Source: a virus
Direction: 5' to 3' (one strand)
Length of the DNA stretch: 24,166 nt
Virus record (IMG/VR): IMGVR_UViG_3300048437_000094
Location: 1 to 24,166 of that record
Below the pieces are notes generated by a model, which searched no databases, was not told where the DNA came from, and was given only the letters and a program-made list of their open reading frames with translations. Below, in pieces: positions 2,415 through 5,649 of this stretch (position 1 is its first letter; every line of letters begins with the position of its first letter). Position numbers and translations under genes: made by a program.

Positions 2415-2975
2415 ATGGATAAGACAATTGTCTTGAAAAACGTGCGTTTGTCATTTGCTGATATTTGGCAACCAAAAGCGTTTAACCCAGGTTCTCCGCT
2501 GAAATACTCGTGCAACTTTTTGTTGGATAAAGACACGCAGGGGGATCAGATCAAAGCCCTAGAAAAGAAAATGTCAGAGATGGCGATGGATTTTTTCAAT
2601 GGCAAACCGCCCAAGGGTATCAAGAGGTGTTTGGGCGACGGCGAAGAAAAATCATATGAAGGGTATGAGGGCCAGATGTTTGTAAGCGCAAGCACAGTCA
2701 GAAAACCGCAAATTGTTGACCGCGACAAAAGCGAATTGGTTGAGTTAGACAACAAGCCGTACTCCGGATGCTACGTCAACGCGGTTATCGGATTGTGGGT
2801 GCAGGACAACCAGTACGGAAAGCGTGTTAACGCGAACCTCGATTTGATCCAGTTCGTTAAAGACGGTGAGCGGTTTGGTGGCGGGGGCGGTAACGCTGTT
2901 GATCTGCTTGACGATATCGAAGACGAAACTGCTGCCGACGTTGTTGCCGAAGCAGAGGACTCGTTTTTCGAGTGA
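2415..2975 (+). CDS. DUF2815-like ssDNA-binding protein
   Basis: A 186-residue protein with the DUF2815 pattern: 'LKNVRLSFADIWQPKAF' near the N-terminus, 'YSCNFLLDKDT', and 'GCYVNAVIGLWVQDN' in the second half. Members of this family are regarded as ssDNA-binding (OB-fold type) phage replication proteins. The Gly-rich hinge 'FGGGGG' leads to a very acidic tail ending 'EAEDSFFE', which resembles the acidic protein-docking tails of SSB proteins. It begins 14 bases after the DUF2800 gene and overlaps the next GTG by four bases (GTGA), so it is translationally coupled to the polymerase. Likely role: coating single strands and loading the polymerase or nuclease partners. Confidence 0.82.
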   Translation: MDKTIVLKNVRLSFADIWQPKAFNPGSPLKYSCNFLLDKDTQGDQIKALEKKMSEMAMDFFNGKPPKGIKRCLGDGEEKSYEGYEGQMFVSASTVRKPQIVDRDKSELVELDNKPYSGCYVNAVIGLWVQDNQYGKRVNANLDLIQFVKDGERFGGGGGNAVDLLDDIEDETAADVVAEAEDSFFE

Positions 2976-3412
2976 TCATCTCAATCGACTTTGAGACTTA
3001 CAGCGAGTGCGACATTCGCTCCGCTGGCGCATACGCATATGCCGACCACCCGTCTACTGAGGTGATCTGCTTGGCGTGGCAGGTAAACGAGGAACCCCCA
3101 GAGCTTTGGCTTTGGGGTGACCCTCCACCCGTAGAGCTTTTTGGCTACATAGAGAAAGGCGCTCAAATCTGGGCGTGGAACAGCTTTTTCGAGATGTGCG
3201 TTTGGAATCTAGTTCTGAAGTGGCCTCTCATACCATTTGAGCAGTGGAACGACACCGCAGCCCTTAGCTCCGTGCAGGCTTACCCCCGTGCGCTGGGCAA
3301 CTGCGGCACGTTCTTAGGTCTGGAGGGTGATCAAGCGAAAGACAAACGCGGCAAGCTGCTGATTCAGCGGCTGTGCAAGCCACAAAAAGTAAGGGCCAAG
3401 CGTGCGAAATAG
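2972..3412 (+). CDS. Family A DNA polymerase, 5' part: 3'-5' exonuclease motifs I and II
   Basis: A 146-residue ORF from a GTG that overlaps the previous stop (GTGA). It begins with Exo I, 'ISIDFET' (D6, E8), and has the Exo II region 'AWNSFFEMCVW' (about 68-78) and 'WNDTAALSS' (about 92-100). It ends in 'LCKPQK' plus a short basic tail at a TAG (3410-3412). Phage polymerases of this type continue directly into an Exo III motif and the polymerase domain; here these are in the next ORF, in the +1 frame. This is therefore half of an exonuclease domain and not a complete enzyme. Either a programmed +1 shift between 3393 and 3409 (for example AAA-TAG to AAT-AGA), a true split gene, or a one-base sequence error explains it. 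Confidence 0.8.
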   Translation: MIISIDFETYSECDIRSAGAYAYADHPSTEVICLAWQVNEEPPELWLWGDPPPVELFGYIEKGAQIWAWNSFFEMCVWNLVLKWPLIPFEQWNDTAALSSVQAYPRALGNCGTFLGLEGDQAKDKRGKLLIQRLCKPQKVRAKRAK

Positions 3413-4871
3413 AGATCCTGAACTGCTTCAAGAACTGTACGACTACTGTGAGCAGGACGTGGTTGCAGAAAGCGAGATACGAAAACGCCTGCGAGATCTG
3501 CGAGGGACGGAGCGCCAAATATGGGAACTCGACCAGCGGATTAACTGGCGAGGTGTGCGCTTAGACAAAGAGAACATTGAACATGCGTTGGCGATCATCG
3601 CGGACGTAGAGAAAAAGCTAAACGCCGAAGTGTTTGAGCTAACCAATGGCGAGATGTCATCAACCAGCAGCCGCGCCAAGGCTCTGGATTGGATCAATCG
3701 CCAAGGTGTGTCGATGGACAGCTACGACAAAGCTGCTGTCGTTTGTGCGCTAGAAGGTGCTTGCCCCCCGAAGGTCGAGCGGTTCCTGCAAATCAGACAG
3801 GCGTTGTCACGCAGCAGCACGAAGAAGTACCAGGCTATGCTGTCCTGCCTTGGCCGAGATGGACGGGCGCATGGCAGCATGATCTACCACGGCGCTGCCA
3901 CGGGCAGATGGACAGGCCGACACTTCCAGCCGCAGAACTTACCGCGCCCAACAGTCGATGACGTTGATGCGGTTATTGATCTCTTCAAACACAGAGACCC
4001 TTCACTGTTTCCATGCGAACCGATGGAGGCACTGTCCAGTTGTTTGCGGGGAATGCTTATTGCCAGCGAAGGTAACAGGCTAATCGTCAGCGACTACAGC
4101 GCCATCGAAGCGCGTGTGATTGCGTGGTTGGCCGGTCACGACACAGTATTGCAGTCGTTTCGTGACGGCCTTGATCTGTACAAGGTCACAGCGTCAGAGA
4201 TGTACGGAATTGCGTACAGCGACGTGGACAAAGATCAGCGATTTCTCGGCAAGGTAGCCAGTTTAGCACTTAATTATCAGGGTGGTGTCCGCGCCTTCCA
4301 AAAAATGGCACAGAACTACGGCACCGATGTCGATGAGCCTACCGCCATCAAAATCAGAGACGATTGGCGTGCAGCTAACAAGCCGATAGTGAAGCTGTGG
4401 AACGAAGTTGAACGCGCAGCGATGAACGCGGTGCGTTATGGCACTGAGCAAGATACCCGCTGTGGATCGTTCAAGTTTGTTAAAGGCGACCTTCTATTCA
4501 AACTGCCATCGAAGCGAATACTTTCATTCCCCAGAGCCTCATTGGCGGACAGCGCATACGGCGAGAAGCTGGTTTATGAAGGCGTCAACAACCACACCCA
4601 CCGCTGGGGCGAGATAGATAGCTACGGCGGTTCGCTTGTGCAGTCTATTACACAGGCTGTTGCCAGAGACTTGTTAGCTCAGTCAGTGCTGAACATAGAG
4701 AACGCTGGCTACCCCGTTGTGCTGACAGTGCATGACGAGATTGTCGCAGACGTTCCGAAAGGATTCGGATCGCTAGACGAATTCAACACTTTAATGTGCG
4801 AACTACCTTCATGGGCCAAGGGTCTTCCCGCTGACGTTGAAGGTTACGAATCAGAACGATATAGGAAGTAA
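3402..4871 (+). CDS. Family A (Pol I-type) phage DNA polymerase, main part with Exo III and polymerase domain
   Basis: A 489-residue ORF that starts at a GTG inside the end of the preceding ORF. Exo III comes first, 'YDYCEQDV' (Y15-x3-D19), followed by the polymerase: motif A 'SDYSAIEARVIAW' with D231, motif B 'RFLGKVASLALNYQGG' (R280, K284, Y292) and motif C 'VHDEI' (H444, D445, E446). All catalytic positions are present, so polymerase activity is expected; proofreading would require joining to the upstream ORF. The two ORFs together would give about 632 residues, the normal size for these phage enzymes. A weak ribosome site (TAAGGG) precedes the GTG, so separate translation is possible. It is the replicative polymerase of the operon. 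Confidence 0.88.
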   Translation: MRNRDPELLQELYDYCEQDVVAESEIRKRLRDLRGTERQIWELDQRINWRGVRLDKENIEHALAIIADVEKKLNAEVFELTNGEMSSTSSRAKALDWINRQGVSMDSYDKAAVVCALEGACPPKVERFLQIRQALSRSSTKKYQAMLSCLGRDGRAHGSMIYHGAATGRWTGRHFQPQNLPRPTVDDVDAVIDLFKHRDPSLFPCEPMEALSSCLRGMLIASEGNRLIVSDYSAIEARVIAWLAGHDTVLQSFRDGLDLYKVTASEMYGIAYSDVDKDQRFLGKVASLALNYQGGVRAFQKMAQNYGTDVDEPTAIKIRDDWRAANKPIVKLWNEVERAAMNAVRYGTEQDTRCGSFKFVKGDLLFKLPSKRILSFPRASLADSAYGEKLVYEGVNNHTHRWGEIDSYGGSLVQSITQAVARDLLAQSVLNIENAGYPVVLTVHDEIVADVPKGFGSLDEFNTLMCELPSWAKGLPADVEGYESERYRK

Positions 4872-4873
4872 GA

Positions 4874-5584
4874 ATGTGGATAGTACCCACCAACTACCAA
4901 CTGTCCTCAGCCTCTGCACTGGGTACGGCGGCATTGAGAGAGGACTTGAGCTTGCCGGGTTTGCGCATCGAGTCATCGCTCATGTGGAGATCGAAGCCTT
5001 CGCAGTTGCCAACTTGGTTGCGAAGATGGAAAAGGGAAAACTGGTTCCGGCTCCTGTGTGGACGGATCTTAAAACCCTGCCAGCGCAATGCTTTCGAGAC
5101 CGCGTTGACGTGCTCACTGGCGGTTATCCCTGCCAACCGTTCAGTGCGGCTGGAAAGCGAAGAGGTGCAGAAGACCCCAGGCACCTCTGGCCGTACATCA
5201 AACGACATGTCGAAACAATTAGACCTGTTCGATGCCTCTTCGAGAACGTCGAAGGACACATCAACCTGGGACTCAGAGAAGTCCTTGGCGACTTGGAAAG
5301 CCTTGGTTACAAAACGACGTGGGGAGTATTCAGCGCGGTTGAAGTCGGCGCGCCTCATCAGAGAAAGCGAGTCTTCATTATGGCCCACACCGACAGCCTC
5401 GGACTACAAGGGGTCAGGCCCGACAGTAATACGCAAGGACGGGAAGGACAGGTCGAAAGATCGTTTAGATTACGCGGTAGAGCAGCAACCCAACACCACT
5501 GGGAAGCTCAACCCTCAGTGGGTCGAGTGGTTGATGGGCTTGAGCACAGGGTGGACAGACTTAGGCTTCTGGGCAACGGCGTAG
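4874..5584 (+). CDS. Alternate-frame ORF within the methyltransferase gene; possible dual-coded phage protein
   Basis: A 236-codon ORF begins at an ATG two bases upstream of the methyltransferase GTG (the starts read ATGTG) and stays open to 5584. Its second half is protein-like: an internal ATG at 5207 gives 'MSKQLDLFDASSRTSKDT', then 'SLWPTPTASDYKGSG' (W170 onward) and 'GKLNPQWVEWLMG' (about 210-222). These 'WPTPTASD' and 'LNPxWVEWLMG' blocks resemble phage proteins I recall from other genomes. In the methyltransferase frame the same bases encode conserved motifs VIII-X, so resemblance between such ORFs could simply mirror methyltransferase conservation. Either a real overlapping gene or a shadow; no function is proposed. 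Confidence 0.35.
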   Translation: MWIVPTNYQLSSASALGTAALREDLSLPGLRIESSLMWRSKPSQLPTWLRRWKRENWFRLLCGRILKPCQRNAFETALTCSLAVIPANRSVRLESEEVQKTPGTSGRTSNDMSKQLDLFDASSRTSKDTSTWDSEKSLATWKALVTKRRGEYSARLKSARLIRESESSLWPTPTASDYKGSGPTVIRKDGKDRSKDRLDYAVEQQPNTTGKLNPQWVEWLMGLSTGWTDLGFWATA

Positions 5585-5649
5585 TGCCTCAGACAGCCGC
5601 GCTTGCTTGGACTGTTTTGTCGGAACAAATACAACAAGATGGTGAGTAA
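4876..5649 (+). CDS. DNA (cytosine-5) methyltransferase
   Basis: With the GTG at 4876 (five bases after the polymerase stop, AGGA about ten bases upstream) the protein has 257 residues. C5-MTase motifs appear in order: motif I 'LSLCTGYGGIERG' (AdoMet binding), motif IV 'GGYPCQPFSAAGKRRG' with catalytic C86, motif VI 'ENVEG' (E123), motif VIII 'QRKRVF' (162-167) and motif X 'LLGNGVVPQTAALAW' (around 232-246). It would methylate cytosine in phage DNA, probably to evade host restriction. The target-recognition segment between VIII and X is short. A TTG at 4837 would add 13 residues inside the polymerase gene and is less likely. A second frame is open through almost the whole gene (see the 4874-5584 entry). 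Confidence 0.88.
   Translation: MDSTHQLPTVLSLCTGYGGIERGLELAGFAHRVIAHVEIEAFAVANLVAKMEKGKLVPAPVWTDLKTLPAQCFRDRVDVLTGGYPCQPFSAAGKRRGAEDPRHLWPYIKRHVETIRPVRCLFENVEGHINLGLREVLGDLESLGYKTTWGVFSAVEVGAPHQRKRVFIMAHTDSLGLQGVRPDSNTQGREGQVERSFRLRGRAATQHHWEAQPSVGRVVDGLEHRVDRLRLLGNGVVPQTAALAWTVLSEQIQQDGE

Follow-up and report, generated by a model that had tools for sequence, protein, structure and literature searches.

Does one stretch of phage DNA encode two proteins in two reading frames, and if so, which two? The question is raised by a DNA (cytosine-5) methyltransferase (C5-MTase) gene in the stretch referred to here as the window, an IMG/VR record taken in full (24,166 bases). The first-pass annotation had observed that a second frame is open through this gene for 236 codons from an ATG at 4874, two bases ahead of the GTG at 4876 that opens the main frame, and had suggested that, if real, this would make the segment code for two proteins, possibly a methyltransferase with its partner. 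The sequence and the avoidance of stop codons bear out the frame open from this ATG, and the analysis presented below makes it very probable that the segment encodes both subunits of one C5-MTase of the M.EcoHK31I kind, called here alpha (main frame) and beta (second, +1 frame).

The left part of the window is a phage replication module, and an integrase is found further right. The order in this left part is a DUF2800 nuclease-like protein, an Enc34-type ssDNA-binding protein, a family A DNA polymerase, the MTase, a VRR-NUC protein and an SNF2 helicase; no restriction enzyme was recognised among the neighbours scanned around the MTase. The family A DNA polymerase is apparently broken into an exonuclease-like ORF (2972-3412) and a polymerase ORF (3402-4871) in different frames, and the break around 3390-3410 may be a genuine split, or may stem from a frameshift or a sequencing error. 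The features of the MTase locus are the following.

4863-4868, plus strand: possible Shine-Dalgarno sequence AGGAAG, read from the sequence, a candidate for both starts
4874-4878, plus strand: overlapping start codons ATGTG (beta ATG 4874-4876, alpha GTG 4876-4878)
4876-5649, plus strand: alpha, main frame, GTG 4876 to TAA 5647-5649, 257 aa; C5-methyltransferase motifs I-VIII and X, without motif IX
4874-5584, plus strand: beta, +1 frame, ATG 4874 to TAG 5582-5584, 236 aa, nested in alpha
4874-5080, plus strand: N-terminal extension of beta, found where the beta start coincides with the alpha start or lies close to it; weakly constrained in sequence and avoiding stops
4906-4941, plus strand: alpha motif I (LSLCTGYGGIER), from the 55-row alpha alignment
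5081-5380, plus strand: dual-coded stretch, alpha motifs IV-VIII and beta N-terminal core, from stop avoidance and third-position rates
5119-5148, plus strand: alpha motif IV with the catalytic Cys (GGYPCQPFSA), same alignment
5242-5250, plus strand: alpha motif VI (ENV), same alignment
5347-5382, plus strand: alpha motif VIII (GAPHQRKRVFIM), same alignment
5381-5506, plus strand: target-recognition region (TRD) in the beta frame (WPTPTASDYKGSG...), from substitution rates; alpha is a loosely constrained linker here
5507-5563, plus strand: motif IX in the beta frame (LNPQWVEWLMGLSTGWTDL), from substitution rates, block conservation and alignment to single-chain MTases
5566-5619, plus strand: alpha motif X (LLGNGVVPQTAALAWTVL), same alignment; main-frame coded, third-position rate 0.403

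The openness of the second frame was compared with a null model in which synonymous codons are shuffled within each gene, preserving the alpha protein and its codon usage. In the window alone, the 160-codon core of the +1 frame contains no stop, against about 3.1 by shuffling. Further loci came from viral contigs matching the second-frame protein, from viral contigs matching the MTase N-terminus only, and from 84,980 genomes searched with a 27-row profile of beta; they amount to 217 usable loci, about 178 of which are non-redundant and were used for stop counts. Alternate-frame stops, which the first-pass annotation had thought of looking for among relatives, are nearly absent. Over the 178 loci, some of which came via the beta sequence so that their openness is partly ascertained, the +1 frame holds 8 stops against about 750 by shuffling, with 0 against about 296 in the part encoding the TRD and motif IX and 8 against about 455 over motifs IV-VIII, while the +2 control frame holds 1940 against 1931. 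The 44 loci found by the alpha N-terminus alone, retained only if they also matched the beta profile, have 0 stops against 76 (TRD and motif IX) and 7 against 105.5 (motifs IV-VIII). The motif IX block is found in the +1 frame of 156 of 161 loci, compared with a mean of 0.25 after codon shuffling. Single-chain relatives, used as a negative control, show 97 stops in this frame against 101 expected. The openness of the second frame is real and far beyond chance.

Alpha matches PF00145 (E=3e-33) over residues 9-178 only, i.e., up to motif VIII, beyond which an unusual tail is followed by a clear motif X (GNGVVPQ). It also matches phrog_363 (1.3e-61), and the invariant residues of motifs I, IV, VI, VIII and X are all present in the 55-row alignment. 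The main frame, credited in the first-pass annotation with all its motifs, has in fact only I-VIII and X; LNPQWVEWLMG, the block for motif IX, lies in the second frame. By sequence, beta has no match in Pfam or PADLOC and nothing significant in NCBIfam or the PDB, and its N-terminal half is without a known relative. It does match phrog_1008 (4.7e-24, beta residues 76-192), whose label, 'DNA methyltransferase', conceals that what matches is the product of the nested frame and not the catalytic MTase. The families phrog_31772 and phrog_10223 bear the same name and, like phrog_1008, match the window's nested-frame product rather than mainly the catalytic protein. AlphaFold modelling of beta alone gave a poor result (pLDDT 61.5, pTM 0.26), as one might expect when a subunit is modelled on its own.

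Substitution rates at main-frame codon positions 1/2/3 were obtained from 65 independent pairs, position 1 of the main frame being the wobble position of the +1 frame. They are 0.177/0.103/0.372 in motifs I-III, 0.156/0.093/0.274 in motifs IV-VIII, 0.418/0.284/0.342 in the TRD, 0.208/0.073/0.056 in motif IX and 0.169/0.117/0.403 in motif X. Judged by these position-specific rates, motifs I-III and X evolve as main-frame sequence, the TRD and motif IX as +1-frame sequence, and motifs IV-VIII as sequence read in both frames. The synonymous-site constraint that the first-pass annotation had wanted measured is strong, with main-frame third positions substituted at 0.372 per site upstream, at 0.274 where the beta ORF overlies them and at 0.056 in the motif IX block; in clades other than the window's, the third-position rate is 0.278 in the dual-coded stretch against 0.479 upstream. 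Between the window and its relative L011, substitutions in the TRD number 13/2/2 at positions 1/2/3, and identity is 0.96 for beta and 0.74 for alpha. The alpha peptide lying under motif IX, VGRVAxG, is written in nearly invariant codons (GTG GGT CGA/AGA GTG GCT/GTT xAT GGG) in loci of different phyla, and the beta motif IX consensus, LNPxWVExLMGxPxGWT, is conserved and constrained in the +1 frame. Both frames are under selection, and each group of motifs is assigned to its frame. Because of stop avoidance and these frame-specific substitutions, the second ORF is read here as the beta subunit, with the TRD and motif IX, and the main frame as alpha.

In single-chain C5-MTases, the motif IX element sits between motifs VIII and X. 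Such chains from actinophages and metagenomic phages align with the C-terminal half of beta (E 6e-11 to 7e-13); they carry (L/W)PTPxAxD modules and the block RLxxxFxEWMMGxPxGWVT between these two motifs, all in one frame. One such chain, L235 (298 aa), gives a model (pLDDT 89.9, pTM 0.90) that superposes on M.HhaI over its whole length (Z 25.3, 247 residues, 2.8 A). This alignment and the M.HhaI-like model suggest that beta supplies the TRD and motif IX absent from alpha, and it is the in-frame occurrence of the C-terminal half of beta inside single chains that points to the identity of the partner. The idea of one segment for two proteins, a methyltransferase and a partner, is supported at the level of sequence by stop counts, substitutions and this homology. 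The alternate-frame blocks once described as phage-like are indeed there, but they belong to an MTase, as its target-recognition region and its motif IX, and are not a generic phage block. The copy number of the WPTPxAxD module varies among beta ORFs (e.g., L008, L065, L089 and L104), which suggests modular or multi-specific target recognition.

These data lead to a model in which alpha would provide AdoMet binding, the catalytic Cys, motifs I-VIII, a passenger linker and motif X, while beta, translated from the +1 frame of the same mRNA segment, would provide the target-recognition region and motif IX. We infer that the two polypeptides join to form an active enzyme, in which beta would confer sequence recognition along with motif IX. 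Judging from phage MTases in general, the phage probably methylates its own DNA with this enzyme against host restriction.

Other explanations account for part of the observations. The counter-argument raised in the first-pass annotation was that conservation of the first frame drags the second along, which would stay open without encoding any second protein. Such drag exists, as shuffled genes keep a median of 48 bits to the beta profile, but it is small beside the median of 144 bits reached by the real non-training loci, 152 of 153 of which outscore every shuffle. Nor would drag produce so few stops, or substitutions that track the second frame in the TRD and motif IX, and single-chain relatives do not keep this frame open. 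Codon shuffling and the substitution pattern exclude this explanation, whose chance of being right is practically nil.

Programmed frameshifting would instead involve a +1 shift after motif VIII and a return before motif X, yielding one full-length enzyme, with no separate beta protein. The order of frames (motifs I-VIII main, TRD and IX +1, X main) matches the requirements of such a product, and L094, L115 and L198 have the TRD, IX and X together in the +1 frame; in most loci, however, two opposite shifts would be needed. Frameshifting also leaves unexplained the avoidance of stops across the 100 or more codons that precede the TRD, the internal Shine-Dalgarno sequence and ATG of beta, and the full-length openness from ATGTG in the window's clade, all of which make it a very improbable account. 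It has also to be considered that beta might be a functionally separate partner, such as an anti-restriction protein, a nuclease or a toxin, nested by chance. The absence of Pfam, PADLOC or significant NCBIfam matches and of a known relative for its N-terminal half would be in line with this, but the C-terminal half shares homology with the part of single-chain C5-MTases that holds the TRD and motif IX, exactly this part is lacking from alpha, and no stand-alone copy was found among the best 80 of 344 genome matches. A partner of this kind is very improbable, and the reading of alpha and beta as two subunits of one methyltransferase is retained.

Several placements of the beta start are found. 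The N-terminus could be read in 137 non-redundant loci; the beta ORF extends back to the alpha start in 70 of them and opens within alpha in the other 67. An ATG preceded by a Shine-Dalgarno-like sequence, e.g., AAAGGAGGATTTTTATG, is available to beta in 54 of 65 internal-start loci, compared with 20.5 expected and a maximum of 27 in 100 shuffles. The window's clade comprises 29 loci with SLCxGYGGI as alpha motif I, and ahead of the beta core their +1 frame has 1 stop against 49.7 expected; the same region in 75 loci of other clades has 204 against 165 expected, i.e., no avoidance. In most listed loci of the window's clade, the DNA at the beta start is NTGTGG[AG]T, in the same phase, and translates to [MLV]W[IV]xP. 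Because of this recurring start and of stop avoidance, the two-base spacing is considered recurrent and conserved in the clade. Two further near-start forms of beta are ATGAATGAG and TTAAATGG. A second near-co-start form, (A/G)TGAATGAG, is seen in L007, L088, L244 and similar loci (the alpha MNELALFAGxGGG group), where the alpha start and the beta ATG are four bases apart.

In the window, the AGGA of the candidate Shine-Dalgarno sequence lies about 7 nt ahead of ATG 4874 and about 9 nt ahead of GTG 4876. One ribosome site at ATGTG would then start both subunits, with ATG for beta and GTG for alpha, so that the ribosome's choice of start would set the subunit ratio; the true beta start of the window could also be internal. 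With fair confidence, we propose for the window's clade near end-to-end dual coding, both subunits being launched from one site at ATGTG and their ratio fixed by start choice, and, more broadly, nested split MTases that are widespread and mostly unannotated in phages, with beta starts placed at ATGTG, at ATGAATGAG, at TTAAATGG or at an internal Shine-Dalgarno sequence and ATG.

The search of phage records with the alternate-frame protein, which the first-pass annotation had recommended, gave 85 matched records by tblastn. In 8 of the 9 regions first examined, the match is the +1 frame of an annotated C5-MTase; in the ninth, from EcoPhCCP1, the annotators had called the +1 frame itself the MTase. 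Both ORFs are already annotated in Kagunavirus K1ind1 and phage Lily ('Mte8-like', 'g62 internal gene'), and 'Mte8-like', followed as a literature lead, yielded one relevant mention and no function. In 80 of 80 genome loci, which are the best 80 of 344 matches in the 84,980 genomes, the match to the beta profile is nested in an MTase at phase +1, and so it is in nearly all other loci. Stand-alone homologues, also mentioned in the first-pass annotation, were not found among these 80, and nearly every inspected match to the window's beta in viral contigs overlaps an MTase at +1; what does occur outside nested genes is the C-terminal half of beta, in frame within single-chain C5-MTases. The nested arrangement is present in phages that infect many hosts and in genome records bearing the labels Proteobacteria, Firmicutes, Bacteroidetes and Actinobacteria, among others. 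Four E. coli genomes contain a close match; the annotation of the matched stretch there is limited to the MTase, with a neighbouring ead/Ea22-like gene in two of them. No earlier report of the arrangement in phages was found in the literature searched, which is not proof of absence.

The nested split MTase is conserved in many phages and prophages, for the most part without annotation. Since only the MTase is annotated in those E. coli genomes, and beta carries the label 'DNA methyltransferase' in phage protein families, alpha expressed alone would seem to be an inactive 'orphan' MTase, and its specificity determinant would be missed. The locus offers a clean natural case in which two subunits of one enzyme would share the same DNA.

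To our knowledge, the nested split design is known from a single bacterial enzyme, M.EcoHK31I, whose small gene was reportedly described by Lee, Kam and Shaw in 1995 as lying inside the large one in another frame. The same nesting of a small gene in a large gene is encountered in the window. The beta start of M.EcoHK31I lies inside alpha, whereas beta in the window's clade covers almost all of the gene, its start lying two bases ahead of that of alpha. The window's system also differs in being phage-borne, with no restriction enzyme recognised among the scanned neighbours. M.EcoHK31I (YGGCCR) consists of two polypeptides, the larger with motifs I-VIII and X and the smaller with motif IX, and two-polypeptide C5-MTases are cited as rare exceptions (PMC3404938). 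Its division of motifs is that of the window, where the larger polypeptide likewise lacks motif IX and the smaller one carries it. The predicted TRD of M.EcoHK31I, in contrast, has been placed in the larger subunit (PMC3404938), while in the window's family the TRD is constrained in beta, and the substitution data argue for its location there.

M.AquI (CYCGRG) is also a C5-MTase of two polypeptides, with the break in the variable region (PMC3404938). Its smaller subunit carries motifs IX and X, unlike the window, where motif X belongs to alpha. An M.AquI-like division of motifs is seen in L094, L115 and L198, where the main frame ends after motif VIII. Genes 75/76 of phage Seabastian were considered as an M.AquI-type pair and rejected, as the frame break cuts both alpha and beta; in this locus (L243, 419-1178), which represents a group of Cheoctovirus phages, the break lies near codon 123, and what is left has been annotated as a pair of 'DNA methylase' genes.

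A canonical single-chain C5-MTase has motifs I-X in one frame, whereas the window's main frame is without motif IX and its TRD and motif IX do not evolve as main-frame coding. The actinophage single-chain C5-MTases Ramsey gp69, Sanjuju gp4 and Rita gp76 resemble the window in their catalytic part, in the (L/W)PTPxAxD type of module, in the motif IX block and in motif X, but everything lies in one frame and the +1 frame is not kept open. In L228 (Mycobacterium phage Rita gp76, 101-1270), a single chain, the +1 frame retains an open N-terminal part of beta (101 bits), and the locus looks like a nested pair fused by indels. Fused, nested and tandem forms of the enzyme persist side by side and are open to study.
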